Below, piece after piece: positions 2 to 17,371 of a stretch of DNA of 64,000 nt. Both the position numbers and the translations under genes were made by a program. Where the stretch lies: NCBI GenBank assembly GCA_028287895.1, contig JAQBOV010000029.1:1-64000 (forward strand), in the 5' to 3' direction. Positions within the stretch are counted from its first letter, which is position 1. Each line of letters opens with the position of its first letter. The notes under the pieces are model-generated. The model searched no databases, was not told the origin of the DNA, and saw nothing but the letters and a program-made list of their open reading frames with translations. Source of the DNA: Mucilaginibacter sp. Lineage in GTDB: Bacteria > Bacteroidota > Bacteroidia > Sphingobacteriales > Sphingobacteriaceae.

Positions 2-331
2 CATTAATTGTATGCCGCGCTGTAACGGTGTTCTGATTTTATATTCTGGGATTTTATCCATGCTCATTTTCAGTTCTGCAGAGAGCATATTCCGGATTTG
101 GTCAGCCTGGAATTTCATAACTTCCAAGAACCAAAGCGCGTATCCTTCGGGGTTACTTCCCATCCATTCACTCGTATAAGTATGGTATTGCGGATGGCGG
201 TCATCGGTAATCTTGATCGCATGCATTGCATATTTTTCAGGGACGCCGAGCCTAACAAATTGCATATAGTTATCAGGGACTGCAGGTACAATATCAAGAT
301 GAAAGCAAAATATAAGATTAAAACCCGGCAT
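2..331 (-). pseudogene. CD-NTase (cGAS/DncV-like nucleotidyltransferase, CBASS cyclase family) fragment; N-terminal part missing, continues past the left window edge
   Basis: Minus-strand frame open to the left edge reads ...FCFHLDIVPAVPDNYMQFVRLGVPEKYAMHAIKITDDRHPQYHTYTSEWMGSNPEGYALWFLEVMKFQADQIRNMLSAELKMSMDKIPEYKIRTPLQRGIQLM. It has CD-NTase-like motifs: hLDIVPA (third catalytic Asp region), SNPxGYAxWF and KTPLQRxIQLxKRHRD-like. The GS...DxD segment is absent upstream. Not in the ORF track because it has no stop inside the window. Confidence 0.75.
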
Positions 332-793
332 GAACGGTTCAATGCGGCGTGGGAGGCGAAAGGATTTGTATACTTCGACCTAGAGGAAGAAGAATCTGCA
401 GGTGCTAGGAAGTTTGTTGCTCTGCTCGGACCTATCGTAAGAGCACTGGTTGATGGGGAAATTATCTGGATCGATGAACTTGATGCCCGTTTGCACACTA
501 TGCTGGTAAATTTGCTTGTTTTAATGATCAATTCTCCGAAATATAATCAACGCGGCGCGCAGGCGGTGATCACCACGCATAATGTCCAATTGTTTAAAAA
601 ATTAAGGCGGGATCAGATGTTTTTGCTAGAAAAAAATAAATATGGTATTTCTGCGATGTCAAGTGTCTACACCGGCAAGCCACATATCCGCGGCGACGCG
701 ATCTTAGACAAGGAATATTTGAACGCGCAGCTTGGGGGAGTTCCCAGCATTAGCGAGCAATTGTTCATCGACTTTAATAAAGATCCTGAATAA
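98..793 (+). pseudogene. C-terminal part of an AAA15-family (COG1106/RloA-like) ATPase; N-terminal Walker A half missing; real homology starts near 300
   Basis: Contains ESAGARKFVALLGPIVRAL, a Walker B-like IIWIDELDARLH, an AVITTHN switch motif and a FLLEKNKYG...LDKEYLNAQLGGVP tail. No P-loop is present. The first ~65 residues are antisense to the CD-NTase fragment. Confidence 0.7.
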
Positions 794-863
794 AAAGAAG
801 TTATCCTCTTCAGTCCGACTTGCTAAAAAAAAGTTCATCTTTTAACTATTTTGTTAACGTTCG

Positions 864-894
864 TTTGAAGTTCGAAATCGTTTGATTATCTTTG
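864..894 (+). promoter_or_regulatory. Perfect Bacteroidota-type promoter TTTG-N19-TATCTTTG
   Basis: TTTG at 864-867, 19 nt, then TATCTTTG (TAnnTTTG) at 887-894. Confidence 0.6.
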
Positions 895-1083
895 AAATGG
901 GATAACCGAACGTTCTTAAATTGCATCAAATCGTGTCAATATAACTGTGCCCAAAGTGGTGCCCTGTTTTGATGAAAAAATGATAAAAAGTGCGTTTAAA
1001 GCGCCTAATGGCATATAAAACAACTCGTTGAAGGATCACAAATTATCCCAGCGGGATCACAGACCAAAGCATCAAATCCGTTT

Positions 1084-1117
1084 AAAAGCCTGCAAATCAG
1101 ACGATTGCAGGCTTTTT
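1084..1117 (+). terminator. Intrinsic terminator
   Basis: AAAAGCCTGCAA...TTGCAGGCTTTTT stem with T-tract. Confidence 0.75.
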
Positions 1118-1366
1118 ATTTTTCAGAGAAATCCAAAACTACTCACCGAATCACCCGGACATTCGCAAAGACTGTTAACACCCGGCTTACACCGCATCCT
1201 GTCAGGTGATACAGCAACACAGGGTGAAACAACATCTCAGCAAAAAACATAAAGAGTCGGTAAGGCCGGTCCGGAGCAAAGCAGTAGACGCAATGCCCGG
1301 GATATGCTGACAAAAAAAATTTGCAAACAAAATGGGAATGTCCTACCTTTATACTAACAAAGGCAC

Positions 1367-1555
1367 ATGACCAACGTAAAGTTAACATCCAAAGGACAAG
1401 CATTCCTGGCAAAGGCATCTTCTTCCATGGCGCTGGCAAAGAAAATTGCGAGCAAAGGAAGTGGCCTGCTTTCTAAAGAAGGCATCGTGGTGGAGGTCGG
1501 CGGAAAATCTGTTTCTGCAAGAAGCTTCGCCAATAAGAACTTCCAGGTTAAATGA
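1367..1555 (+). CDS. Small basic hypothetical protein (62 aa), coupled to the next gene
   Basis: ORF track; stop overlaps the next ATG as ATGA (1552-1555). Confidence 0.55.
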   Translation: MTNVKLTSKGQAFLAKASSSMALAKKIASKGSGLLSKEGIVVEVGGKSVSARSFANKNFQVK

Positions 1556-2340
1556 ATATCGCGCTCAGCGCAGTAATTATTTCCATTCTGCTCATTCCGC
1601 CGATTATTTTTTATTTATCCTTTTACCTAGGGAAATACCCGCGTGCCATACCAAAGTTCACATTGTTTGAAGGCATTTTGGGGGCTGCGGTCTTTTCATT
1701 ATTTGTTCATGCCCTTGCAACTCATTATTTTATCAGCAGTGAGATCCGCTATGATATCCTTATCAAATTGTTGGGCGGTGAGCTTAAGGATTTGGAGAAA
1801 AAAGTGCCGGACAATGAGTTCCAGGCCGCCTTGTCTGATTTTGCCCTGTATAACCTTTGCCTGAACGCGGCTATGGTCGTCCTGGGCCGGTGCTTTCGGC
1901 AAATCCTGTTATGGACAGGCTGGCATGCCAAATATCCCGTGCTTAATCTTTATAATAAGTGGTGGTACCTGTTTAACGGCTTTTATAACGGGATAAAAGA
2001 TCCGGATCTGATTTTTATTGATCTTGTGGTAGATACGAATGAAAGCACGGTTATCTATTCGGGTTATCTGGCAAATTTTGATTTTACAAACGGCGAACTC
2101 GAAAGGGTCTACCTGCAGGACACGCTCAAACGGGAATTTATCGGTACCGGAAAGACCGGTCAAGACGCTAACGAGGTTAACACTACCGAACCCTATGCCA
2201 TTCCCGGTGATATCTTTAGCATCGCCTACAAAAACATCCTGAACATCAATATTCACTTTATCTCTTTTGATAACTCACTGGAGGAGATCGAGCAGCTGCC
2301 GGACGCAACCACTGAAGATACTCCCGGAACAGGAGCATAA
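1552..2340 (+). CDS. Hypothetical membrane protein (DUF6338-like topology, unverified)
   Basis: 262-aa ORF with N-terminal hydrophobic helices and a soluble C-terminal domain; overlaps the upstream stop by 4 nt. Confidence 0.75.
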   Translation: MNIALSAVIISILLIPPIIFYLSFYLGKYPRAIPKFTLFEGILGAAVFSLFVHALATHYFISSEIRYDILIKLLGGELKDLEKKVPDNEFQAALSDFALYNLCLNAAMVVLGRCFRQILLWTGWHAKYPVLNLYNKWWYLFNGFYNGIKDPDLIFIDLVVDTNESTVIYSGYLANFDFTNGELERVYLQDTLKREFIGTGKTGQDANEVNTTEPYAIPGDIFSIAYKNILNINIHFISFDNSLEEIEQLPDATTEDTPGTGA

Positions 2341-2648
2341 ATAAACCTACCCAGCTGGAAACAAAGTTGCCCGCAATGGCGATCACAGGCAACTAATGGC
2401 ATAAATTCATATAGGAACTGGCTATTTCTTTGGCATAAAGCTACGGAGGGCATTATATGGATAGGTTGCTGTCCCGACCTATATAAAAAACAGTTTAAAT
2501 ATTTTGAAAGCCCGTTAAAAAATTCAATTATATTATAGCATTTGTAGCTAAAACGTACATAAAAAGATGGTAAGTAGAAAAGCAAAACCATTCCAGATAC
2601 TATTTAAATGCTGATTTTCGGACTAGGTTCGAATGCCAGCGGATCACG

Positions 2649-2672
2649 AAAGGCGCACTAAGGTGCGCCTTT
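2649..2672. terminator. Hairpin terminator, 10-bp perfect stem
   Basis: AAAGGCGCAC-TAAG-GTGCGCCTTT. Confidence 0.65.
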
Positions 2673-2689
2673 TCGCGTTAAATCACGTT

Positions 2690-2923
2690 CTACACGTATA
2701 AAATAGCAAATAAGGGATCAGTCCGCTCAAGCAATGAAATCATCTGAAACCTCCAAATCTTCATAGAGTCCGTTCGTCTGGCAAGCCTCCCACCTAGCGC
2801 ACTAACAACGGTAAGCCTGCCACGTGGACCATTTGCCAAGGCATCCTTAACAATCGTCAGGGATAATTTTGGTTGCACGCCTGGTAATCCAGCAGGAAAA
2901 TCAAAAGGCATACGCTTTTTCAT
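2690..2923 (-). CDS. Small hypothetical protein or gene fragment with an LPGVQPKLSL motif
   Basis: 77-aa ORF; N-terminal FPAGLPGVQPKLSL resembles a motif seen in several families; the remainder looks unrelated. Confidence 0.3.
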   Translation of the reverse strand: MKKRMPFDFPAGLPGVQPKLSLTIVKDALANGPRGRLTVVSALGGRLARRTDSMKIWRFQMISLLERTDPLFAILYV

Positions 2924-3170
2924 GGTTCAAGAATTAACGCTATTCTCCAATTCAGGCCATTTTAGAGGCATACTGCGGCAATATTTCACTCGCTGTCAGG
3001 TATTCAAACTGCATGAAAAGCTCTTTGTTTTTCATGCAGGTAAGCTATATTGCATATTTATTGGTAACCCGCAGGAAAAAAAATGATTTAATTTTGAGAT
3101 AGTTAAATAATTTGATCAAAACAATTAGGGCTTACGATCTTTAATTATATAACAACAAAATCATTTACCT

Positions 3171-4073
3171 GTGTTACCCATCAAACCACACCTCTGGTTC
3201 GACCAGGAAGCAAAACAAGCAGCTGAATTCTATGCAACCTTGATGCCTGACTCGGCTATCAATTATGTCAATCATTTTCCAATGCCTGGCGGCGAATGCC
3301 AAATAGTCGAATTTACCGTTGCCGGCCAGCCGTTCCTTGGTATCAGCGCCGGGCACAAGCTTGGGATCAATCCATCCATTTCCTTCATGATCAACTTCGA
3401 CCCCTCGCGTGACCCGGATGCCGCCAAGCACATCGACGAGGTTTGGAGCAAGCTGATCGGCAACGGAAAAGTACTGATGCCGCTGGATAGCTATCCTTTT
3501 AGTGAACGCTATGGCTGGGTAGCCGATAAATACGGAGTATCCTGGCAACTCATCCTGACTAACCACTCCGCTGAGGAAAGGCCCGTGATCGTTCCGTCGC
3601 TACTGTTCACCGAACCGGTGGCGGGTAAAGCCGATGAAGCCATCGGCTTTTATTGCTCGGTATTTAAAGACAGCAAACGCGGCAGCACCACCCAACGCCC
3701 GCAAGATATGGGGCCGGATAAAGCGGGCACACTTATGTTCGCTGATTTTTACATCGATAAAACCTGGCTGGCCGCTATAGATAGCGCGTATCCGCATGGG
3801 TTCGGTTTTAACGACGCGGTGTCGCTATTGATCCCATGTGAAACCCAGGAAGAAATCGACTACCACTGGTCGGCACTTTCGGCTGATGGCCAACCTGGCC
3901 AATGCGGCTGGCTGAAGGACAAATACGGTGTATCCTGGCAGGTGGCTTCCACCGTCATGTTAGATGCGCTCAAGAATGGCAGCCCTGAACAGATTGTGCG
4001 CGTTACGCAAGTTTTTATGACAATGAAGAAAGTTGACATCGAAACCCTGCATCGGGCTTATGATGGTGAGTGA
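3171..4073 (+). CDS. VOC superfamily (PhnB-like, two-domain) protein
   Basis: Two repeats of the fold: KPHLWFDQEAKQAAEFYATLMPDS...GWVADKYGVSWQL and PSLLFTEPVAGKADEAIGFYCSVF...WLKDKYGVSWQV. Confidence 0.92.
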   Translation: MLPIKPHLWFDQEAKQAAEFYATLMPDSAINYVNHFPMPGGECQIVEFTVAGQPFLGISAGHKLGINPSISFMINFDPSRDPDAAKHIDEVWSKLIGNGKVLMPLDSYPFSERYGWVADKYGVSWQLILTNHSAEERPVIVPSLLFTEPVAGKADEAIGFYCSVFKDSKRGSTTQRPQDMGPDKAGTLMFADFYIDKTWLAAIDSAYPHGFGFNDAVSLLIPCETQEEIDYHWSALSADGQPGQCGWLKDKYGVSWQVASTVMLDALKNGSPEQIVRVTQVFMTMKKVDIETLHRAYDGE

Positions 4074-4416
4074 TCAATTAATTTTAATTAGTGACGATTT
4101 ATGACCGTTTTCTTTTTACATCGTGACTGCTTATAATAATCCATTTTCAATTAAGCATCTCAATTGTAACTATGCTGTTTACTAGCCACCTGTCATTAGA
4201 CATCCCGTTGCTTCCTGTTTATTTACTACATAAGCAAGTACGGTCTGCTCGTTATAAAAAAATTTGCCAGGTCTCGAAAAACCTTTAATGTATAAAAACG
4301 TTAAATCTTTATTGCTTATATTAGCATAAACACATTTTTAGTACTATTTGTCTTACGGTTTATGATCAATAAGTGAGCATTATTAAAATTGTGCTCAAAT
4401 TAAAAGGAAATTCACC

Positions 4417-5052
4417 GTGGAAAAACCTAAAAATAACGACTGGCAAACTTCCGATCCCCATGTTTTTTGGGGCGAGATAGCTCCTACAGATCATATCCTT
4501 CAGATCTATGAAAATGATGATACTTTTTTGGACCTGCTAAAACACTTTGTTATAAGCGGGATTAAATCCAATGAATCGGTTGTCATCATTGCGACAAATG
4601 CACACATCCAGCATTTAACTGAACGGGTCAAAAAAGACGGATATGATGTTGCGTCCTGTATCGCCTCGGATCACCTCATATTACTCGAGGCAGAAGAAAC
4701 TTTGTCTAAATTTATGGTTAATGATTGGCCCGATGCCGTGCTTTTCCATCAAACCATTAACGATATAGTCAAGCGTGTCAAAGCAAAAAATCGCCGTCTC
4801 CGCGCTTTTGGGGAAATGGTCGCGCTTTTGTGGGCTCAGGGGCACAACGGGGCCACGGTCCGTTTAGAAGATTTATGGAACAGGTTTTGTGAAACCGAAG
4901 CTTTTTGTTTGTTTTGTGCTTACCCGAAGTCGGGCTTTACACAGGATGTCAGTGCTTCCATGCACAATATTTGCTGCGCGCATTCTAAGATGATTTCAGG
5001 TAGCCATGCCTTAAAGGATAAGATCTTTTATAAAACAGTTGTGGGATTTTAG
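4417..5052 (+). CDS. MEDS (DcmR-like sensory) domain protein
   Basis: HILQIYENDDTFLDLLKHFVISGIKSNESVVIIATNAHI...GEMVALLWAQGHNGATVRLEDLWN...FCLFCAYP is typical of MEDS proteins. Confidence 0.88.
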   Translation: MEKPKNNDWQTSDPHVFWGEIAPTDHILQIYENDDTFLDLLKHFVISGIKSNESVVIIATNAHIQHLTERVKKDGYDVASCIASDHLILLEAEETLSKFMVNDWPDAVLFHQTINDIVKRVKAKNRRLRAFGEMVALLWAQGHNGATVRLEDLWNRFCETEAFCLFCAYPKSGFTQDVSASMHNICCAHSKMISGSHALKDKIFYKTVVGF

Positions 5053-5112
5053 ATAGTTGACTTACCTGAACTAAAATCTTTTGAAGTTTAAAGTCAAAAG
5101 GCGCATTTTCTA

Positions 5113-5138
5113 TTTGTGCGCCCGGCACGGCGCACAAA
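5113..5138 (+). terminator. Hairpin terminator
   Basis: Perfect TTTGTGCGCC/GGCGCACAAA stem just after the MEDS gene. Confidence 0.55.
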
Positions 5139-5141
5139 ATA

Positions 5142-5167
5142 AAAAAAGCACCCTTGCGGGTGCTTTC
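5142..5167. terminator. Second tandem hairpin terminator
   Basis: AAAAAAAGCACCCTTGCGGGTGCTTTC. Confidence 0.6.
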
Positions 5168-5282
5168 ATCAACTAAACCACTATTACTAGATCTCACTTA
5201 GTATCAGTATCCTCTCATGGCCACGCTTTGCGATTTGTAGGCACGTAAACTTGGCAACAAAACAATAAACAGTCAAATGGCT

Positions 5283-5987
5283 TTAAATAATTTGTACTTT
5301 CTTAATACCTTTATGCGAAGCGATTAATTCCGGTAATGACCGAATAGAACGCAGTAACTTGGCCGTATTTATCGATAAGAGCTCATATTGTTTATTTATT
5401 AGTATTTCTTTACTGATTAATTTGCTGCCTGCCCCTAAAACAGATGTTCCGGATTTAAACCAATTAAGCATGCTTTCATCGTCTAATTCCACTCCCCCGG
5501 TTGCCATAAATAATAGACCTGGAAACAATTCGATAATGGAAGAAATGAAGCCAGATGTTAAAACATTTGCCGGAAAAACCTTGACAAGTAATGCACCATA
5601 TCTTTGCGCTAAATCAATTTCTGTAGGTGTCATACAACCAGGGATCCACAAGGTGCCGGTCTCATTTGCAAATTGGGCAACTTCAATGTTTACAATCGGA
5701 GAAACAATAAAATTCGCACCGCTTTCGATAAAGGCCTTTGCATCTTCCTTTGTTTTTATAGTGCCTATTCCAAGCTGAAGGTCAGGCATTTCTGTTTCCT
5801 TTACTCTTAATAGGTACTTAAAGTTATCCAGGGCTGGCTCCCCGCGATTGGTATATTCAACTATCCGGGCTCCGCCTTTATAAAGTGCTCTTAGAATATT
5901 TAAGCTTTCTTTAGCGCTATTTAAATAATATAAGGGCAATAATTGCTGTTTTAATATAATCTTTAAAACATTCCTTTTATTTTGCAT
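5283..5987 (-). CDS. eda: 2-dehydro-3-deoxy-6-phosphogluconate/galactonate aldolase (KDPG aldolase family)
   Basis: ARIVEYTNRG, GIGTIKT, GANFIVSP, Lys-containing GALLVKVFPAN and ATGGVELD motifs. Confidence 0.9.
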   Translation of the reverse strand: MQNKRNVLKIILKQQLLPLYYLNSAKESLNILRALYKGGARIVEYTNRGEPALDNFKYLLRVKETEMPDLQLGIGTIKTKEDAKAFIESGANFIVSPIVNIEVAQFANETGTLWIPGCMTPTEIDLAQRYGALLVKVFPANVLTSGFISSIIELFPGLLFMATGGVELDDESMLNWFKSGTSVLGAGSKLISKEILINKQYELLSINTAKLLRSIRSLPELIASHKGIKKVQII

Positions 5988-7002
5988 TTTTAAACATCAT
6001 TTTTTTAATTTCAGGAACAGTTCGATTTGTTGCATCGCTTTCAATAAATAATTTACTAAAAGCTGCAGCCGTGGCAAATTCAAGGATATCTTTTAAAGGC
6101 ATCCTCTGATAATATCCATAAATTAATCCGGCCATATAACAATCACCGCTTCCTACCCTATTTATTGTTTTGTCGGAAAAATATTCCATGGAGTAGTTAA
6201 ATTGCCTAGCACTGTACAGCGTTGAATAATAGTTTATTCCATCTAAATGGTCAAACCGGAAAGTGTTCGCTACCGCTTTACATTTTGGAAACAAATGACA
6301 AATTGACTCAGAGGTTAATCTCGCATGTGTTAATAAACTATTTTTGTTATCTCCGGAAATAAGAGCTTCGTTTAGGTCAATAGCTAACATGGCATTTGCC
6401 GCCCAAATATTCCCCATAATCAAATCACAATATTTTACCAGTTCCGGCATCACCTCGGCAGGTCCTTTTCCATATTTCCAAAGCTTGGCCCTGTAATTCA
6501 GATCTATTGAAATATAGATGCCTTTTTTTGATGCCATCTGCAACGCCTCCAGACAAACATCCGCTATCTTCTGGTTTAATGCCGGACAGATAGCGCTGAA
6601 GTGAAACCAGCAAACGCCATCGAATATTTTGTCCCAATTAACATCTCCTATTGCCAGATCACTAAAAGCTGAATTTTCCCGATCATAAATTACTGCTGTA
6701 TGATTTATCTGATGGCCTTGCCGAAGGTAATAAAGGCCTAATCGTTCCCCATTAAAGATAATTCCGTCCGTATTTACATTTTTCTGCCGTTTTAGAAAAT
6801 TAACTATTTGTCTTGAAAAATAGTTGTCAGGCAGTGCCGTTATAAAGGAGGAGTCAAGTCCCCACAATGCCAGTGCCGATGCCACATTTAGCTCCGCCCC
6901 GCCAATAAAAAACTCCAGTTTATTTTCCTTTAAATAGTTTTCTTCAAGGTCAGGGCATATCCTTAATAACAACTCGCCAAAAGATAATATCTTACCCTCC
7001 AT
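5977..7002 (-). CDS. kdgK: PfkB-family sugar kinase, probable 2-keto-3-deoxygluconate/galactonate kinase
   Basis: LSFGELLLRI, FIGGAELNVASALALWG and INRVGSGDCYMAGLIYG; overlaps the aldolase by 11 nt. Confidence 0.88.
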   Translation of the reverse strand: MEGKILSFGELLLRICPDLEENYLKENKLEFFIGGAELNVASALALWGLDSSFITALPDNYFSRQIVNFLKRQKNVNTDGIIFNGERLGLYYLRQGHQINHTAVIYDRENSAFSDLAIGDVNWDKIFDGVCWFHFSAICPALNQKIADVCLEALQMASKKGIYISIDLNYRAKLWKYGKGPAEVMPELVKYCDLIMGNIWAANAMLAIDLNEALISGDNKNSLLTHARLTSESICHLFPKCKAVANTFRFDHLDGINYYSTLYSARQFNYSMEYFSDKTINRVGSGDCYMAGLIYGYYQRMPLKDILEFATAAAFSKLFIESDATNRTVPEIKKMMFKNAK

Positions 7003-7158
7003 AATATCCTAATTCTTTTAAATCTTAATTTGCAATCAATTCAATATTCTTATCCTGGATGGATAAACAGTCATTAGTGTTATAACCATTTTTATTTTTT
7101 AAATCAAGGGAAGTCAATCAGCGATTACCGTCCCTTTATTGAAATATATTGGATTTTT

Positions 7159-8862
7159 TTACCAAAATTTAATATAAAGAGCAGTTAAAAGACACATGAT
7201 AATTCCTATTAAGATCCGGGAAGAGTTAGAAATACGAAACATATCCGATGTAACAACGATTTTGTTATTCTTATCCTCCTTATTAGGAAACAACAGGCTT
7301 AGGGTAACCATGAATACTATGGTAAAAACGAAGACCCAACCCATACTTACCAAAAATGGAATAATAAACACGCCAGCATGGTCGGGATAAGCAGTATACC
7401 AGAAAGTTTCCGTACCCAAAAATCCAACAAGCCATTTATCAAAAATAACAGATAAGGCGAGTGAACCCAGAACTCCGGATAATGCGGCAAATGAAGTTGT
7501 TCTCTTCCAGAAAAACCCTAACAGAAAAACGGCTAAGATGCCCGGGGAAACAAAGCCGGTATATTTTTGGATAAATTCAAATCCGCCTTTTTGTCCTATT
7601 CCGATGGAATCATTCCAGTTTACAAAAATGGCAATTGCAATGGCTAGAATTATTGTTAAGCGGCCTATCCAAATTATTTTTTTTTCACTTGCATCCCTGC
7701 CGAGATATTTTTTATAAATATCTAATGTAAATATCGTAGCTATACTATTAGCTTTCCCGGCCAGCGAAGCAACAATGGCAGCCGTAAGAGCCGCCAGACT
7801 TAGCCCTTTTAAACCGACAGGCAAAAAATCTAAAATAGCAGCATATGCATTATCTTCTCTAAACACTCCTTTTGTAAGCATTTGCTGATGCAACCCGCCT
7901 TTTTGATATAATACATAAGCGGCAATTCCAGGTAAAACAACAATTACAGGCATGAATAATTTTAAAAATGCAGAGAAAAGAATTCCTGTGCGGGCAGTAT
8001 GCAGGTTTGCCCCTAAGGCCCTCTGTGTAATGTACTGGTTGCATCCCCAATAGTTTAAATTGGCAACCCACATACCGCATGCAAGCATGGCAAGTCCGGG
8101 CAGGCTTACATATCTGCTGATTTCTGCAGTACCGGAGTTTACAGACGGTTTCTTAAAAATCATTTTAAAATGTTCAGGAGCCTCAGTCAGTAACCTGTTA
8201 AATCCATTAATGGCACTAGTCCCGGTCCCAAATTTTTGAGAAACCAGCGTCAGGGCTAAATAGGTAGTTGCCAGACCGCCGACGATCAGAAAGAACACTT
8301 GAATTACATCGGTATAACCGATTACCTTCATTCCCCCGATAGTAATGATCAAAGCGGCTACAGCAAGAGAAACCATAACTACATGAAAATATCCGTCCCC
8401 TACCAGGTTACTCAGTGCTATCGTGCCCAAAAAGAGTATAGAAGTTAGATTAACAAATACATACAGAAATAACCAAAAAACAGCCATTAACATCCCTACT
8501 GTCTCATTATATCGTTTTTGAAGAAACTGAGGCATTGTATATATTTCATTTTTTAAAAAAATCGGGATAAAGAAAACAGCAACTATAATTAATCCAACGG
8601 CCCCGGTCCATTCATATACAGAGATAGCCAAGCCTAAACGAAAGCCGTTTCCGGACATCCCTACAAATTGTTCTGCGGAAATATTGGAGGCTATAATCGA
8701 AGCGCCTATAGCCCACCAGGTAAGGGACCCTTCCGCCAGGAAAAAGTCTGCCGACTTTTCGTTCTTCTTTTTCTTCTTAAATATATAATAACCATAAAAC
8801 GCAACCAACAGAAAGTAACAAACAAAGACGAGATAATCAGGTAATTTAAGACTGGAAGCCAT
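7159..8862 (-). CDS. Sodium:solute symporter (SSS family)
   Basis: AEGSLTWWAIGASIIASNISAEQFVGMSGNGF; many TM segments. Confidence 0.93.
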   Translation of the reverse strand: MASSLKLPDYLVFVCYFLLVAFYGYYIFKKKKKNEKSADFFLAEGSLTWWAIGASIIASNISAEQFVGMSGNGFRLGLAISVYEWTGAVGLIIVAVFFIPIFLKNEIYTMPQFLQKRYNETVGMLMAVFWLFLYVFVNLTSILFLGTIALSNLVGDGYFHVVMVSLAVAALIITIGGMKVIGYTDVIQVFFLIVGGLATTYLALTLVSQKFGTGTSAINGFNRLLTEAPEHFKMIFKKPSVNSGTAEISRYVSLPGLAMLACGMWVANLNYWGCNQYITQRALGANLHTARTGILFSAFLKLFMPVIVVLPGIAAYVLYQKGGLHQQMLTKGVFREDNAYAAILDFLPVGLKGLSLAALTAAIVASLAGKANSIATIFTLDIYKKYLGRDASEKKIIWIGRLTIILAIAIAIFVNWNDSIGIGQKGGFEFIQKYTGFVSPGILAVFLLGFFWKRTTSFAALSGVLGSLALSVIFDKWLVGFLGTETFWYTAYPDHAGVFIIPFLVSMGWVFVFTIVFMVTLSLLFPNKEDKNNKIVVTSDMFRISNSSRILIGIIMCLLTALYIKFW

Positions 8863-8868
8863 TTTATT

Positions 8869-9768
8869 CTATTTACTGAGGTGATTATTTGAAAGATTAA
8901 AAAAATTAGCGGGTAGTCCCTTCACCCCCGTTTTACAGGAAAACAGACTACCGCTTCTGGGATATTTCATTAATTCCGAACTGGATAGTCCTGTTCTTGC
9001 GGTAGTAATAAAAAGTGTTGTTAAATCTTTCCCTCCGAAGGTACAAGAGGTAACATTTAAGGCAGGAATTGCTATATGAGCTAAATGTTCGCAGGTAACC
9101 GGATGATATCTGCCGATTCTTCCGCCACCCCAAAATGCAATCCAAAGCATTCCTTCGCTGTCTACACATAGGCCGTCAGGTGATTCCTCAGGGCCGATTT
9201 TCAGGATCGTTCTGCCGTTGCTTAATTTTCCTGAGCCTGCTTCAAAATCATATACACGAACTGTTCGTTCGAACGAGTCAATAAAATACATCGTTCGCCC
9301 GTCAGGAGACCAATCTAAACCATTTGCTATAGTTAATTGATCAAGCACTTTGGATATCGACAGATCTGCTGTAATGCGATAAAGAGAGCCCTGCTGGAAA
9401 AGGGTCCGAGTGCCCATCGTGCCAATCCAGAATCTGCCATTCAGATCGCATTTCCCATCATTGCAACGATTTTCCGGCAGATGGCTTTCCATTTGTGTTA
9501 ACGTTTCAATTTTTTTAGTTTCTGTATTAAATTGGGCCATTTCGCCGCGCAATGCGATCAGCAATATTTTATCATTTACAGGTACCAATGCACTAACAGG
9601 TTTATACGTCCTGGTGACTGATATATTTTTTTGAATAGGATCGTATGAATAAATTTGGCCTTGTTCGATATCCACCCAGTATAGTTTTTGCTGTGTGGGA
9701 TGCCATAGAGGCCCTTCACCTAATGCGCATTCAATGCCTATTTCTAGTTTTGCTTTTAAATTTTTCAA
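8869..9768 (-). CDS. SMP-30/gluconolactonase family lactonase
   Basis: GEGPLWHPTQQKLYWVDI, NRCNDGKCDLNGRFWIGTMG, NGLDWSPDGRTMYFIDS. Confidence 0.93.
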   Translation of the reverse strand: MKNLKAKLEIGIECALGEGPLWHPTQQKLYWVDIEQGQIYSYDPIQKNISVTRTYKPVSALVPVNDKILLIALRGEMAQFNTETKKIETLTQMESHLPENRCNDGKCDLNGRFWIGTMGTRTLFQQGSLYRITADLSISKVLDQLTIANGLDWSPDGRTMYFIDSFERTVRVYDFEAGSGKLSNGRTILKIGPEESPDGLCVDSEGMLWIAFWGGGRIGRYHPVTCEHLAHIAIPALNVTSCTFGGKDLTTLFITTARTGLSSSELMKYPRSGSLFSCKTGVKGLPANFFNLSNNHLSK

Positions 9769-9787
9769 TTTATCAGTTGCTCAAAAT

Positions 9788-10579
9788 TTATTTATCCTGC
9801 ATTAAAGCCGCCCGTCCGCCATCCATAAGATAAGTTGACCCCGAAATAAAGGCGGCAAAGTCACTCGCCAAAAAGGCACAAAAGGCCCCTACGTCTTCAA
9901 CTGTTCCCAATCGCTTAACCGGGTGTAGTTCGATGGTTCTTTTTCTTTCAGCTTCCGGATCAGGAAAAGAGTTGAACCAGGTGTCATTGCCGGCTGTTTG
10001 AATGAATCCTGGAGCCAATCCGACGGCCCGGATTGTTGGCCCCCATTCGATGGCCATGCTCCTAACTAGGCCTGTTAAAGCCGTTTTCGCAATGTTATAG
10101 GGAAAACACCCGGCAATTGTTGAAAAAGCATGATTTGAGGTCATAATGATAATAACGCCGTTTTTGCTCTTTTCAAGAAAGAGCTGTGAATACTTGCATA
10201 CCCTCCAGTGAGAAGTAATATTAAGGTCTATATTCTTTTGCCATTGTTCTTCGGTACTTCCTGCAACACCCTCAAAAATATTCTGCCCTGCATTTGAAAC
10301 AACGATGTCAAGTCCATTAAAAAAACTGGCGGCGGTTTTTACAAAACTTTCAAGTTCCTCAGCTTTTGTTACATCAACCTGCTGATAAAATGATCTTCCT
10401 CCCGCCCCCTCTACCTGTTGTTTAAAAATTAAAGCAGCGCTGCTGTCTTTTGGCTCTTTACCACATCCTGCAACATCGCATCCTGCCTTTGCAAGCATTG
10501 ACGCTACTCCAAGCCCTATTCCTGAGCTGACACCGGTAACCAGTGCGGTTTTACCCTTCAAATCAATAGTTAATCCCAT
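9788..10579 (-). CDS. SDR family oxidoreductase
   Basis: TGVSSGIGLGVA, NAGQN, YNIAK catalytic motif, YLMDGGRAA. Confidence 0.93.
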   Translation of the reverse strand: MGLTIDLKGKTALVTGVSSGIGLGVASMLAKAGCDVAGCGKEPKDSSAALIFKQQVEGAGGRSFYQQVDVTKAEELESFVKTAASFFNGLDIVVSNAGQNIFEGVAGSTEEQWQKNIDLNITSHWRVCKYSQLFLEKSKNGVIIIMTSNHAFSTIAGCFPYNIAKTALTGLVRSMAIEWGPTIRAVGLAPGFIQTAGNDTWFNSFPDPEAERKRTIELHPVKRLGTVEDVGAFCAFLASDFAAFISGSTYLMDGGRAALMQDK

Positions 10580-10584
10580 TTCAC

Positions 10585-11751
10585 CTATATATAAAAGCCT
10601 TTTCTTTCTACCGTTAATCCCGGATGCTTTTCCATTTCTTCTTCAATGAGATCGACTCCGAGGCCGGGTCTGTCTGAAAGATGCAGGATACCGTTTACAA
10701 TCATTTCTGAGATGGGATAATTGATAACAGTATCCCGCCACGGTACATCGGTAAACATGAACTCCTGCCTGAAAAAGTTGGGAACCGATGCGCAGACGTG
10801 CGCACTGGCTATCGTGGAGAGTGGCCCATTCGGATTATGAGGGGCTAACAAAACATTATAGGCTTCCATCATAGTGGCCATTCTTTTCATTTCAGACGGC
10901 CCACCACATCGGGTAATATCCGGCATAATGATATCACAAACATTTTTCTCCAATAGCTCACGAATACCGTGACGCGTATAATGTCTTTCGCCAACGCAAA
11001 TAGATACATTGGAAGGAATCCGTTCACGCATTGCTCTTAACGTATCAGCACTTTCCGGCCCTGCAGGCTCTTCATACCAGGTTATATCAAGCTCAGATAA
11101 ACGCTGCGCCATTTTCACGGCCACCCGGTAATTAAGCATCGCATGCGTTTCGATCATGATATCAAAGTCAGGTCCGACTGCATTTCGTACTGCTTTGCTT
11201 ACCTCAAATGCCAGATCCTGTTGCTCTACAGTAAGGGTTAAATTGGAAGATAAATCTTCTCCGTATAAATAATTTACATGTGCGAAAGGGTCAAATTTTA
11301 ATCCTGTAAATCCGGCCTCCTTTACCTTTACCGCTTGCTCAGCATAATCCTCCGCGGTATGCCCCCCGCCTGTAAACCAATAGTTAGCATATAAAAGGAT
11401 TTCCTTACGAAAAGCCCCTCCAAGCAGTTCATAACAGGGGACTCCCAGCATCTTACCTTTCAGGTCAAGAAGGGCCATATCAATCCCGCTTATGGCGCAC
11501 ATACTGGCTCCATAAGGGCCAACCCAGTTTAAATCCCTGTATAACTTGGTCCATATAAAATCAATACGCCTGGGGTCCATTCCTATAATCCTTTCTCCAA
11601 CATGCTTTGCGGCATGATATACTATAGGACTGCCCGGCCAATTGGTAGCTTCGCCAACACCCGTATGACCGGTGTCTGTATAAATTTTTATTAATGTCCA
11701 ATTGTATTTAATTCCTTCAACAAGCCAAACTTTAACTTCAGTTATTTTCAT
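10585..11751 (-). CDS. Mandelate racemase/muconate lactonizing (enolase superfamily) sugar-acid dehydratase, galactonate dehydratase-like
   Basis: TWYEEP, ICVGERHYTRHGIRELL, MPDITRCGGPSEMKRMATMMEAYNVLLAPHNPNGPLS. Start trimmed to internal MKITEVKVWLVEG; the ORF track begins at 11808. Confidence 0.9.
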   Translation of the reverse strand: MKITEVKVWLVEGIKYNWTLIKIYTDTGHTGVGEATNWPGSPIVYHAAKHVGERIIGMDPRRIDFIWTKLYRDLNWVGPYGASMCAISGIDMALLDLKGKMLGVPCYELLGGAFRKEILLYANYWFTGGGHTAEDYAEQAVKVKEAGFTGLKFDPFAHVNYLYGEDLSSNLTLTVEQQDLAFEVSKAVRNAVGPDFDIMIETHAMLNYRVAVKMAQRLSELDITWYEEPAGPESADTLRAMRERIPSNVSICVGERHYTRHGIRELLEKNVCDIIMPDITRCGGPSEMKRMATMMEAYNVLLAPHNPNGPLSTIASAHVCASVPNFFRQEFMFTDVPWRDTVINYPISEMIVNGILHLSDRPGLGVDLIEEEMEKHPGLTVERKGFYI

Positions 11752-11969
11752 ATGTTTTAGATTATTATTCCAACAAAAGCTGCCCTGGCACTTACCGTTT
11801 CCCGGCATGGTTTTCGTCCAAAATACCTATTTGCTTCAATTCATGCCATTCCAGACAATTACAGGTGTAAACAGCGCAATACCCATTAGATATGGCCCGC
11901 GGCTTATCATTCGTATTGAGCGGGCCATACAATATTACCCTGTCCTGATGTGAGAAGAGCTGTTTCAGA

Positions 11970-12704
11970 TTACAGAATTCCATATTTTTCAAAAGCTTCT
12001 TTGACGCTCATGCCGTTAAATATAGCTTTCTGTACCGTTTTTTCTCCTCTGGCTTTTTCTACGGCTCTGATAAACACTTCTTCTTCAATTGCTTTTGGAA
12101 CTACACATACCCCATCAATATCACCAATGATGATGTCTCCCGGATTAATACGAACACCGTTAATTTCCAGTGGCACCCTGAAATCAATAACCTTTCCCCG
12201 TGGACCCTGGTCCTGTGCATAACCTCCGTAGGAGAAGGTTGGGAAATCAAGGTCCAGTATGCCGGTGGTATCTCTTGAATACCCGTTTATTACTGCCCCG
12301 CCTGCCCCTAACTGCATAGCGCGTGTGCTCATCAGCTCACCCCACAAAGCATACGTAAATGAGGATCCTGTACAAATGTATATTTCATTTTTTTTCAGAT
12401 CATCTAACGCTTCGATCATCAAACCAAAGGGCTTTCTCATGATTGGATTTGCAGAATCTGGTGATAGTTCTTCAAATGTATCTGCTTCAAGAACTGTCAT
12501 TGCCCGGCCAACCAAAAACATTGATTTGCGAAGAGGCTGTATTTGAGGAGGCAGAAACTGGTGAAGGTATCCCATTTTATCCATAACATCCCCAACTACA
12601 GCGGTATAAAGTTCATTTTTAATAATAGAAAAAAGCTCGTCATCGTTCTCCCACTTGTCTTTTTGTATATTGTATGGCTCTTCATGATTCATTTTAATGC
12701 TCAT
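11970..12704 (-). CDS. RraA/HMG aldolase-like family protein
   Basis: VGDVMDKMG, GELMSTRAMQLGAGGAVINGYSRD, PGDIIIGDIDGVCVVPK. Confidence 0.9.
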   Translation of the reverse strand: MSIKMNHEEPYNIQKDKWENDDELFSIIKNELYTAVVGDVMDKMGYLHQFLPPQIQPLRKSMFLVGRAMTVLEADTFEELSPDSANPIMRKPFGLMIEALDDLKKNEIYICTGSSFTYALWGELMSTRAMQLGAGGAVINGYSRDTTGILDLDFPTFSYGGYAQDQGPRGKVIDFRVPLEINGVRINPGDIIIGDIDGVCVVPKAIEEEVFIRAVEKARGEKTVQKAIFNGMSVKEAFEKYGIL

Positions 12705-12795
12705 TTGTTATATTTTTCTTCCGTCTTAATTGTTTTGCTATCGTCCTTAAACTGCGTGCTCTGTTCCGGCGCTATAGCCCCGGTGATCATTGCAA

Positions 12796-15684
12796 CTATT
12801 TTTTAAACCGTAATGATATTATTCCCGTTTGTGGCCGAACCGGAATATGTTTGCTGTAATCTCCCCAGCCAATTTCCGGATAATCCCAGGATGTATTTAC
12901 ATACAAAGTGAGTTCGCCTGCTATGTTTTTGTTAACCCGGCAGGCTGTGTTTGCTTTCGGTGAGAGTACTTCCATCATGCTACCTGCAGATGTAAACAAC
13001 TGATAGCTGTTGATATTTTCTTTCATCGACTTGGCTACATTGGTAAGAGGCTGACTGGAATTAGTCCCCGAAACACCAAAATAATAAAAATTCCTATCAT
13101 CAAACTGCCACTCGTTTTTTGGATGTTTACGATAATCTTTCGTCGAATTGGTTTTGTAAAGGGCAACACTTCCTTCAGGAGCGCCGAAATCGCCTTTTGG
13201 ATAATAGCTCCAATACGATTCGCGATTCCATAATAGCCGATCATATGACCCGGGAAGGGTAAATTTTACGCCCGATTCTTTCAACAGTTTGCCTGGTAAA
13301 TGATCTGCCTGGTAGTTAACGGCCATATCCCCGTTTCCATTAATTCGAACTATAAATTCAACGGTAATGTCTTTGCTTTGTCCCGATATATGAATAGTAG
13401 CATAACCCTGTTCGGACGTATAATTAATCTGGCCGAGCTTCCAGTCAGCCCCAGGATTGGCTTCCGTTGCAGCAAAATTCAAATACGGACCGGCGTGAAT
13501 GATAATCTCCCCGTTAAATTTGGCGTCATTCAAAAGACCATTTTTCTTATTAAATGGGTAATGAAAATTTCTTCCCTGCACTACTATAGAATCTGCCGTT
13601 TCCTTAACATCTACCTGACCCTCCGGAACGAAGGCGTCTGCCGGAGTTGCTTTTTTACCCAGGGTTAAATCATATTCATCTATTAGAATGTTATTTCGGC
13701 TAAAGCTTACCTGAATGATGTCGCCGTTGCTCCAATTTTGAACGGGCAGGGTAAGCAAACCTTTGGTATGCGGTGCAATCGCCGGACACGTTAAGGTCCC
13801 CGTTTTTCCTTTATAATTAAAAGTCAATTTAACTTCATCAAGTAAGGTGTGATCGAACCGGTTGTATACAGGTACCTGCAACGGGTGGCCGGATGTGAAA
13901 TCCTCAATATTTGTTTCAAGTAATCGGACGGGGGAGTAAGCCTTACGGGTGCTCCAAAATTCAGGCTTTTTTCGCCTCCAGGTATCGACAATGCCCCATT
14001 CACCATATCCGACTGTGGTATCCGGAAGCATAAATGTTTCATCAATCATTCCCCAGATAGCGCCACCGAGGCCGCCTTTTGCTTCAAAGGCTCCCTGCCA
14101 CATCAAATCAAGTGACTTGCCCCAAAACTCACGAATATTAGGGTCCTCGCGAAGTATATCATTGACATAACAGGGAACATGCGCCCATTCATCAAATAAA
14201 ACAGGCATGGTATAATTATTAAAATCCGTTATGTCTAAACCATACTGCTTCAGATTACCGGTATATTCCGGATAATGCATACTTAATAAATCATAAGCTT
14301 TTTGCCCGGCAGGAACGATTCCGGGATAACTGAAAATAACAGGACGGGTCTTGTCATTCTGCTTCAGCCAATCATATGACTTTTGAAAGTTGATGCCATA
14401 TTTACTTTCATTACCAATAGACCAAATAATTACAGAAGGTTCGTTACGTAACGTGGAAGCCATCTCTTCCAATTGAGACATATAATTTTTGGTATAGGCT
14501 TCTGAGCTTTCTGTTGAAGTAACACCATTATATTCCGATGTTCTATTCGTATTTACAAAACATACCGCGGATTCCGATTCTAAATAAATCCCCATTTCAT
14601 TGCAATATTCAACAAAACGTTGTGTAGGTGGATAATGGGAAGTACGTATGAAATTAATATTCGCCTGTTTGGCTATCTCTGCATCCAGCTTATCATATTC
14701 ATCCGTTGCCATACGACCCAAGAGGGGATTGATGTCATGGCGGCAAGCGCCCCGAAGTTTTACCGGCTGGCCATTTACCAGCAACCGATTGCCATTGATT
14801 ACAACTTTTCTAAATCCTATTCGCTGGCTGTATGCATATTGCTTTCGATCACCGACCCAAACCTCCGTTGTAAGGGTATAAAGATTCGGATGCTCTGAAT
14901 CCCATTTTAACGGCTTGTCAATTTCAAATCTGGTTTCCTTTCGCGGATTATTTTTCGTTAATTCAAGATTGTTATTATCCAGTACCACAAGCTTCCCGTT
15001 CGGATCCGTTAAGGAAAATTTAACGTTCGCTTTATCTTTTATGCTTCCGAAAACCTTGAAACTCAGACTGGCATTGGTGTAGTCAGCGTCAAAATCAGTT
15101 TCAACGCTCACATTGTTAATCCTGTCCTCGGGAAGTGCATATAAGGAAACATCCCTCAATATACCTCCTATACAATGTTTGGCATAGCCGGATTCATAGG
15201 AAATATCATCTTTCTTATCAGTTACTTCTAAGGTTACCGTACAATTTTTACCGGCTGTAACTGCATTAGTAATGTCGCTTTCCCATCGGGTAAAACCGCC
15301 CTGGTGATCTCTTAAATATTTGCCATTAATCCACAAGCGGGCATAACTGTATACCCCATCAAATCGAATAATTACTCGTTTACCACGGAAATCGGAAGGA
15401 ATTTTAATGACCCTTTTGTAAAGCATGGGTTCATCAAATTTAACCGCAAAACCCTGCATTGCAGGCTCGCCAGGAATCTGAATAGCCTTCCAGTCAGCCG
15501 CATTCGCTTTATTTTCTGGAGAGCCCGCGGTCTCCTGAAAATTAAATTTCCAGATTCCATTGAGAGATAGGACTGGGTGTCTGACGCCTTGCACCTTTAA
15601 TGTGTTGATATCCTGTGCCTGAACCAGGCAAATGGATAGCAGAAAAGCGATAAATGAAAATGTATAAAATTTAGATTGAAGCAT
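12796..15684 (-). CDS. Glycoside hydrolase family 2 (beta-galactosidase/beta-glucuronidase-like), signal peptide
   Basis: LNGIWKFNFQ, LRGACRHDINPLLGR, NFIRTSHYPPTQRFVEYCNEMGIYLESE, IIWSIGNESKYG, VLFDEWAH. Confidence 0.93.
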   Translation of the reverse strand: MLQSKFYTFSFIAFLLSICLVQAQDINTLKVQGVRHPVLSLNGIWKFNFQETAGSPENKANAADWKAIQIPGEPAMQGFAVKFDEPMLYKRVIKIPSDFRGKRVIIRFDGVYSYARLWINGKYLRDHQGGFTRWESDITNAVTAGKNCTVTLEVTDKKDDISYESGYAKHCIGGILRDVSLYALPEDRINNVSVETDFDADYTNASLSFKVFGSIKDKANVKFSLTDPNGKLVVLDNNNLELTKNNPRKETRFEIDKPLKWDSEHPNLYTLTTEVWVGDRKQYAYSQRIGFRKVVINGNRLLVNGQPVKLRGACRHDINPLLGRMATDEYDKLDAEIAKQANINFIRTSHYPPTQRFVEYCNEMGIYLESESAVCFVNTNRTSEYNGVTSTESSEAYTKNYMSQLEEMASTLRNEPSVIIWSIGNESKYGINFQKSYDWLKQNDKTRPVIFSYPGIVPAGQKAYDLLSMHYPEYTGNLKQYGLDITDFNNYTMPVLFDEWAHVPCYVNDILREDPNIREFWGKSLDLMWQGAFEAKGGLGGAIWGMIDETFMLPDTTVGYGEWGIVDTWRRKKPEFWSTRKAYSPVRLLETNIEDFTSGHPLQVPVYNRFDHTLLDEVKLTFNYKGKTGTLTCPAIAPHTKGLLTLPVQNWSNGDIIQVSFSRNNILIDEYDLTLGKKATPADAFVPEGQVDVKETADSIVVQGRNFHYPFNKKNGLLNDAKFNGEIIIHAGPYLNFAATEANPGADWKLGQINYTSEQGYATIHISGQSKDITVEFIVRINGNGDMAVNYQADHLPGKLLKESGVKFTLPGSYDRLLWNRESYWSYYPKGDFGAPEGSVALYKTNSTKDYRKHPKNEWQFDDRNFYYFGVSGTNSSQPLTNVAKSMKENINSYQLFTSAGSMMEVLSPKANTACRVNKNIAGELTLYVNTSWDYPEIGWGDYSKHIPVRPQTGIISLRFKK

Positions 15685-15765
15685 AATTTGATCGAATGTT
15701 AAAATGAATACGTTGCCTGAATTAATTAAATAAGCGAAAATTTAAGCCGCTAGCGCTGGTTGCCA

Positions 15766-17361
15766 TTAATACCCTGGATTCTGTGTCATCGCGGGATTAG
15801 AATCCATTTCTGATTGCGGAATAGGTAATAAGTAGTTCCTGACCGGATTGAATTGCCTGTCTTCTAACTTGATATATCCGGCTGCCCAGGTTACTTGTCC
15901 TGAAACGGGATCAACTGTTCCCTCCCGGCTGCCATATAACGGGCCTGGCAAAACACTGGGTCCTAAATCCCATCTTTTAACATCGAAGAACCTCAGGCCT
16001 TCAAAAGCGAGTTCTACACGACGCTCGCGGCGGACTAAATCCATCGTGAGCTGCATTCCGGGAGGATTTGTCTGACCGGCGCGCGTTCTCAAATCTTGAA
16101 TATACTGGAGTCCCAGACCTGTGTTTTGCCCGGTCGCAACAGCACACTCAGCAAATGTTAAATACATTTCTGCCAAACGGATAACCATTATATTTCCGTC
16201 ATTATTATTCATATCCTGCAGTGACATGGGCTTAACATATTTTTTTACATTTTGCCCTCCTCTGGAAGCAGCAGCTTCTTCATGGTAATCCGGATTCTTG
16301 TTTCCATTAGGCAATAATTTGTCTAATGAATTATAATATCTACCGTTCCAAAACTGGCCGGGATATATGATTGTCATATCTAACCTTGGATCGCGATTAG
16401 CAAATGGCTTGTCAGGATTATAGCCCGAAGCAGGATCGGATATGAGTTTACCATTACTGCATTCATAAGCATCTACCATACTTTTTGAAGCACTAAGGGC
16501 GGACCAACCTAAATCCAATGCAGGGAGGCTGAGTTGAGGAAGCATATTTTGGTAACCGTCCTTTAAATATTCAATTTCCAATATTGATTCTCTGTTATTT
16601 AGTTTATTTTCCGGTAAAAACAAATCTCTGTAATTCGGATAGAGCTGATACACTGGCATATCAATTACAGCTTTTGAATCCTGCATCGCTTCAGTATATT
16701 TTCCCAGATATAATTCCAGTCTGGCTTTTAATGCCAATGCGGCCCCTTTTGTGATATGTCCGCCTGATTCGATATTATTTTGCACCGGAAGAATGGCACT
16801 GATTGCTGTTAGCTCATCTAAAATAAATTGCTGAACTTCCGCAGCTGCATTTCTTTTTAATTTTACATCTGACGTCACCAGCTCTTTTACCACCGGGATA
16901 TCGCCAAAAAACATCACCTTATTAAAATAATCATATGCCCTCAGAAAACGCACTTCCGCCTTATATACTTCTTTTTTATTTGCATCCATCTGCACGGTTG
17001 CTATTTTGGTAAGAAAATTATTGTATTTGCGAATCCGGGAATAAGTGAACCAATTACAAGCTCCCTTATCCGGCCAGCTGCTTTGCTGAAAATTAGCCGG
17101 TGTGATTTGACCATTCCCCTTTTGCTGGTAACCGTAATCGAATTGCTCATAGCCATTATCGCTCACTGCATCCAGAAAACAGATATTCATGTAGGTTTCC
17201 CAGGAATTATAGCAGCCGGCTAGTGCAAGGTTGGCATCTTCTTGGGTCTTCCAAAAAATGACATCCGAAAGTGAATTTTTAGGTATTACATTGAGGGCGT
17301 TTTTGTTGCAGGCGCTCAGTAACACAAGGAAAAATATAAATAAATTTTTTATGGGTTTCAT
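15766..17361 (-). CDS. RagB/SusD family nutrient uptake lipoprotein
   Basis: Lipobox LLSACNKN; SusD pattern; C-terminal YLLPIPQSEMDSNPAMTQNPGY. Confidence 0.95.
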   Translation of the reverse strand: MKPIKNLFIFFLVLLSACNKNALNVIPKNSLSDVIFWKTQEDANLALAGCYNSWETYMNICFLDAVSDNGYEQFDYGYQQKGNGQITPANFQQSSWPDKGACNWFTYSRIRKYNNFLTKIATVQMDANKKEVYKAEVRFLRAYDYFNKVMFFGDIPVVKELVTSDVKLKRNAAAEVQQFILDELTAISAILPVQNNIESGGHITKGAALALKARLELYLGKYTEAMQDSKAVIDMPVYQLYPNYRDLFLPENKLNNRESILEIEYLKDGYQNMLPQLSLPALDLGWSALSASKSMVDAYECSNGKLISDPASGYNPDKPFANRDPRLDMTIIYPGQFWNGRYYNSLDKLLPNGNKNPDYHEEAAASRGGQNVKKYVKPMSLQDMNNNDGNIMVIRLAEMYLTFAECAVATGQNTGLGLQYIQDLRTRAGQTNPPGMQLTMDLVRRERRVELAFEGLRFFDVKRWDLGPSVLPGPLYGSREGTVDPVSGQVTWAAGYIKLEDRQFNPVRNYLLPIPQSEMDSNPAMTQNPGY

Positions 17362-17371
17362 TTTCTTATAA

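Follow-up and report, generated by a model that had tools for sequence, protein, structure and literature searches.

A broken type II-short CBASS locus at the start of a Mucilaginibacter contig, probably a deletion scar, and a small RNA from its missing segment

We analyzed a 64,000-nucleotide stretch of DNA from Mucilaginibacter sp. (GCA_028287895.1, contig JAQBOV010000029.1, positions 1 to 64,000; hereafter the window) and found that its first bases carry a broken type II-short CBASS locus, not a new system. The middle of a CdnG-type CD-NTase is joined there to the tail of an AbiLi-like ATPase, and everything that lies between these parts in intact relatives is missing. We consider it probable that this edge is the scar of a real deletion, with an assembly artefact as the main competing explanation. 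In relatives, the missing segment holds an undescribed small RNA found at the head of defense operons of various kinds.

A CD-NTase fragment abuts an ATPase fragment

An open minus-strand frame extends from position 331 to 2 and reaches base 1 of the window; it includes the peptides HLDIVPAVPD, SNPEGYALWF, and IRTPLQRGIQLM, from which a sequence-only reading had proposed a likeness to CD-NTases. Profile searches confirmed this likeness, with frame residues 10-110 matching PADLOC cyclase profiles (PDLC00770, 5.3e-30, profile positions 132-235 of 509; PDLC00780, 1.3e-25) and the fragment matching PDB entry 9woo, annotated as a cyclic GMP-AMP synthase (6.6e-12). These matches are far above chance. 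Searches of the fragment returned no match to the CD-NTase middle part in Pfam and only a sub-threshold cGAS match in NCBIfam. PADLOC, PDB, and alignment with a relative together place positions 2-304 (minus strand) at residues 134-234 of a 565-amino acid CD-NTase-E2 protein, while the nine codons MPGFNLIFC at 305-331 (minus strand) are a frame extension only, made up of ATPase-gene antisense and junction bases. Of the acidic residues, the fragment retains the third, D137 of HLDIVP. The catalytic GS...DxD motif expected of a CD-NTase (G63-S64 and D81xD83) is absent from the window copy; it falls in the missing part, as had been read from the sequence, and an ATPase gene stands in its place. 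The frame had also been described as missed by the ORF track: the unlisted frame is indeed real, but its omission was no oversight, as the frame runs off base 1 of the contig.

Because the window starts at the very first base of the 183,684-bp contig (one of 111 contigs in a 4.46-Mb, 92.5% complete assembly), there is no left flank in which effectors could be inspected. Compared with the relative G148, 24 of 306 bases differ in the left piece, and 20 of the 23 changed codons are synonymous. Since dS is 0.45 and dN is 0.017 in this comparison, the CD-NTase gene was under selection until recently.

To the right, positions 307-793 (plus strand) encode the last 161 residues (269-429) of a 429-residue AbiLi-like AAA_21 ATPase, assigned by the AbiLi profile (6.6e-34, positions 172-291 of 326), the AAA_21 profile (1.4e-8), and the relative. 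Walker B and the C-terminus are present, and Walker A (GANSSGKT, residues 53-60) is in the missing part. Antisense to the CD-NTase, a fortuitous open frame occupies 98-306 (plus strand, by frame and alignment); a gene caller would merge it with the ATPase remnant into a 231-amino acid ORF (98-793), which is not a real gene.

The CD-NTase and ATPase matches stop at one base from opposite sides, making 306|307 a junction of two truncated genes. Resemblance to CD-NTases had earlier been seen to end near position 300, in agreement with this break. The ATPase fragment, which the earlier reading overlooked, implies that the break is either the scar of a deletion across two genes or a chimera from assembly.

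The intact locus in Mucilaginibacter relatives

The intact locus was found in 3 of 150 genomes of the same genus (G148, G128, and G038), with respective protein identities to the window of 96, 82, and 72% for the CD-NTase and 100, 74, and 62% for the ATPase. Both genes lie on one contig in each genome, divergent, with ~3 kb between the matched parts. The relatives' loci come from the MAG M. xinganensis NGEE_A_bin37 (L023), Mucilaginibacter sp. OK098 (L024), and M. myungsuensis (L025). L023 comprises, on the minus strand, a CD-NTase with a C-terminal E2 domain (6840-8537), the HNH-SAVED effector Cap5 (8539-9663; Pfam SAVED 6.6e-48, PADLOC HNH-SAVED 2e-136), and a 57-amino acid ORF (9665-9838); a 434-bp gap separates this ORF from the ATPase on the plus strand (10273-11562; AbiLi 6.8e-72, AAA_21 2.6e-29). 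The E2 domain of L023 matches PDLC00862 (2.7e-39), and its counterpart in the window would fall beyond the contig start. Two of the three relatives have a CD-NTase-E2 fusion, and in L025 E2 is a gene of its own.

All three loci share genes, order, and orientation with the window, and L023 DNA is 92-100% identical on either side of the junction; they are intact, whereas the window lacks 2,935 bp. In alignment, positions 1-306, to the left of the junction, are collinear with L023 7835-8140 and those from 307 on with L023 11076 onward. Absent relative to L023 are both gene fronts (CD-NTase residues 1-133 and ATPase residues 1-268), the whole effector, the 57-amino acid ORF, and the intergenic region. 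The missing pieces, including the rest of the CD-NTase, were not found elsewhere in this assembly.

The intact L023 layout is the one reported for the type II-short CBASS CdnG-Cap5 (PMC8568899), and the gene set of CD-NTase, E2, and HNH-SAVED is common to that system and the intact relatives. Against SmCdnG-E2 (PDB 8hsb), the L023 CD-NTase matches SmCdnG (2e-38) and its E2 domain matches the E2 (5.9e-7); the L023 effector is like SAVED-domain effector structures (7rwk, 1.5e-89). Unlike CdnG-E2/Cap5 CBASS, the relatives add the 57-amino acid ORF, the divergent ATPase, the small RNA, and, in two of three, the E2 fusion, and the window copy is broken. A CD-NTase and an effector in one operon, the arrangement that marks type II-short CBASS, occur together in the intact relatives but not in the window. 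A Cap2/Cap3 pair would not be expected, since the type II-short layout of the relatives has E2 only. The earlier suggestion of a broken CBASS locus thus stands, with the CD-NTase truncated and the effector absent from the assembly. Its companion suggestion, effectors to the left of the window, does not: the contig begins at base 1, and the relatives' Cap5 is on the other side, within the missing 2.9 kb.

The full-length L023 ATPase matches both PADLOC AbiLi and Pfam AAA_21. It differs from AbiLi in having no directly following partner gene, and the window keeps only its C-terminal part. This ATPase is an occasional CBASS neighbor: it adjoins the CD-NTase in just 6 of 80 related loci from named genomes, which rules it out as a fixed CBASS component, while HNH-SAVED is a common neighbor. 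The six comprise three Mucilaginibacter loci, two from Dysgonomonas (oriented as in Mucilaginibacter), and one from a Fibrobacterales MAG (L113). In this last locus (612-5359), the same divergent ATPase / HNH-SAVED / CD-NTase arrangement occurs at ~31-44% identity (31% for the ATPase layout), and no small-RNA match was found there.

Origin of the break

The two sides of the junction have different recent histories, because identity to G148 changes exactly at the join (24/306 versus 0/518 differences; Fisher p = 2.6e-11). The tract without differences spans 307-824, with a left flank of 92% identity and a right flank of lower identity; beyond this locus, positions 800-20000 of the window are mostly 65-79% identical to G148. 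These 518 bp are the same as in another species of the genus, as would follow from very recent transfer or shared contamination. In alignment, homology with the G148 locus ends at 1046-1063 (TCCCAGCGGGATCACAG...), likely the edge of a shared mobile segment, and a tyrosine-recombinase-like gene (assigned by eye) adjoins this end in the relative. Integration into a tRNA gene at this end was rejected, as no tRNA is present there; the 17-base sequence of the homology end has a single copy in the genome and none in G148. The exact junction sequence was not found in viral contigs, and a search for relatives on plasmids found none.

Several observations support a real deletion: both pieces retain the relatives' order and orientation, and SAVED and the CD-NTase N-terminus sit between the matched parts in L023. 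Weighing against it, the junction is 306 bp from the contig end, no microhomology is seen at 306|307 against the relative, and the pieces are of clearly different ancestry, so that a chimera fits too. On the deletion reading, the intact state would have had Cap5 and the 57-amino acid ORF preceding a CdnG-type CD-NTase with a fused or following E2, and the AbiLi-like ATPase opposite. A single event of ~2.9 kb would then have taken the CD-NTase gene's opening 133 codons and the ATPase gene's opening 268, together with all of Cap5 and the intergenic region between them, and left two gene tails pointing away from each other. The jump in identity precisely at the junction, from 92% on its left to 100% on its right, suggests a deletion made during recombination: incoming DNA of a close relative would have recombined homologously at the ATPase end and illegitimately at the CD-NTase end. 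Homology-facilitated illegitimate recombination is a route known from natural transformation. It would yield the observed pattern, and a chimeric contig end would do likewise; the identities, the coordinates, the lost stretch, and the switch in identity are observed, and from them we infer both the route and the existence of the join in the cell. With the cyclase remnant lacking GS...DxD and the effector nuclease absent, the locus would be dead: the remnant would be unable to make the signal, whose nuclease target would also be gone.

An assembly artefact is a serious but less favored possibility. The terminal 306 bp would then be another strain's island variant, misjoined to this contig, and the organism itself may carry the whole locus or lack it. 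Such a misjoin accords with the contig starting at base 1, with the step from 92% to 100% identity to the relative exactly at the join, and with the lack of microhomology, yet both pieces belong to one locus with order and orientation kept, and a join without shared k-mers requires at least one spanning molecule or read. It is very improbable that the fragments form a rearranged, working system in which the CD-NTase or the ATPase has a new role; two open frames, with traces of purifying selection in the CD-NTase part, are in its favor, but the nucleotidyl-transfer motif is missing from the cyclase and Walker A from the ATPase, the assembly lacks the effector, and the traces of selection may all be older than the break. 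An ordinary intact CBASS simply cut by the contig end can practically be dismissed: the contig start does truncate the CD-NTase frame, but inside the contig another gene takes the place of its N-terminal side, which refutes this explanation for the N-terminus as assembled and leaves it alive solely as part of the artefact alternative.

A small RNA lies in the segment missing from the window

Within the gap between the 57-amino acid ORF and the ATPase, ~105 nt are conserved across the three relatives, and the gap regions have folding z-scores of -3.8, -2.4, and -4.3. We assign a small RNA to L023:9990-10095 (plus), L024:8752-8856 (minus), and L025:7873-7976 (minus), with further copies in L041, L140-L149, L159, L161, and L163. 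Iterated covariance models recovered the RNA in further Sphingobacteriaceae genomes; with strict filters, the covariance model found no copy outside the genus among 395 genomes sampled from the class. The window itself lacks it. In a 13-member alignment, 10 pairs changed on both sides compared with 3.7 in shuffles (0 of 500 shuffles reached 10), and 83.5% of alignment cells pair compared with a maximum of 43.3% after sliding; the structure had been drawn on that alignment, which favors it. TAnnTTT is a Bacteroidota promoter element, and a TAnnTTT box is found 19-27 nt upstream of the RNA in 10 of the 13 copies. The 3' end has a terminator-like hairpin and a T run. No Rfam family matches the site, and we found no literature on such an RNA among open-access papers.

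The RNA stands head-to-head with defense operons of several kinds: type II-short CBASS in L023-L025, another CBASS in L041 and L143, a TIR-effector CBASS in L149, a HORMA/TRIP13 type III CBASS in L142, an MBL and E2-E1-JAB operon in L140, L144, L145, L146, and L148, and a TIR/caspase operon in L141. Three later matches from outside model building repeat the pattern, one with the MBL operon (L159) and two with the 57-amino acid ORF (L161 and L163). The match in L158 is an orphan, and those in L160 and L162, without conserved motifs, were judged chance terminators. We rejected the idea that the RNA is simply antisense to the operon leader: its duplex energies did not beat shuffles consistently, and one locus, L144, was ~2 standard deviations better.

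The 57-amino acid ORF is often the first gene in these defense operons. Homologues of the L023 ORF occur in L024, L025, L041, L044, L045, L061, L108, L141, L161, and L163, with the consensus MATNGKP..GHRNGAVRERSQ..NP..WVKRDTETGRFMDVKKDG.PFKGVRKE, and no Pfam family scores over cut-off. Other genes recur near the RNA as well. The AbiLi-like ATPase lies downstream of it on the same strand at L146:7566-8924, L148:6108-7355, L159:5033-6286, and L023:10273-11562, and the operons opposite these four RNA-ATPase pairs differ. A ~304-amino acid protein lies behind the RNA at L147:6313-7227 and L161:1243-2157 (75% identical to each other), followed in L161 by an MBL-fold-looking gene; this locus is possibly an undescribed defense operon.

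On balance, we favor the view that the RNA missing from the window is a dedicated gene and a recurrent regulatory or sensing part of Sphingobacteriaceae defense operons, with its own promoter and terminator, facing away from the operon start, often with the 57-amino acid protein as the first gene, and that the window would represent a natural loss of such a module.

Discussion

The right annotation for the remnant in the window is a broken CBASS, and counts of working ones should exclude it. While the CBASS fragment itself is an ordinary broken defense locus, what merits follow-up is the small RNA of the lost segment. As a conserved RNA common to unrelated defense operons, this RNA could be a shared control or sensing element for CBASS in Sphingobacteriaceae.
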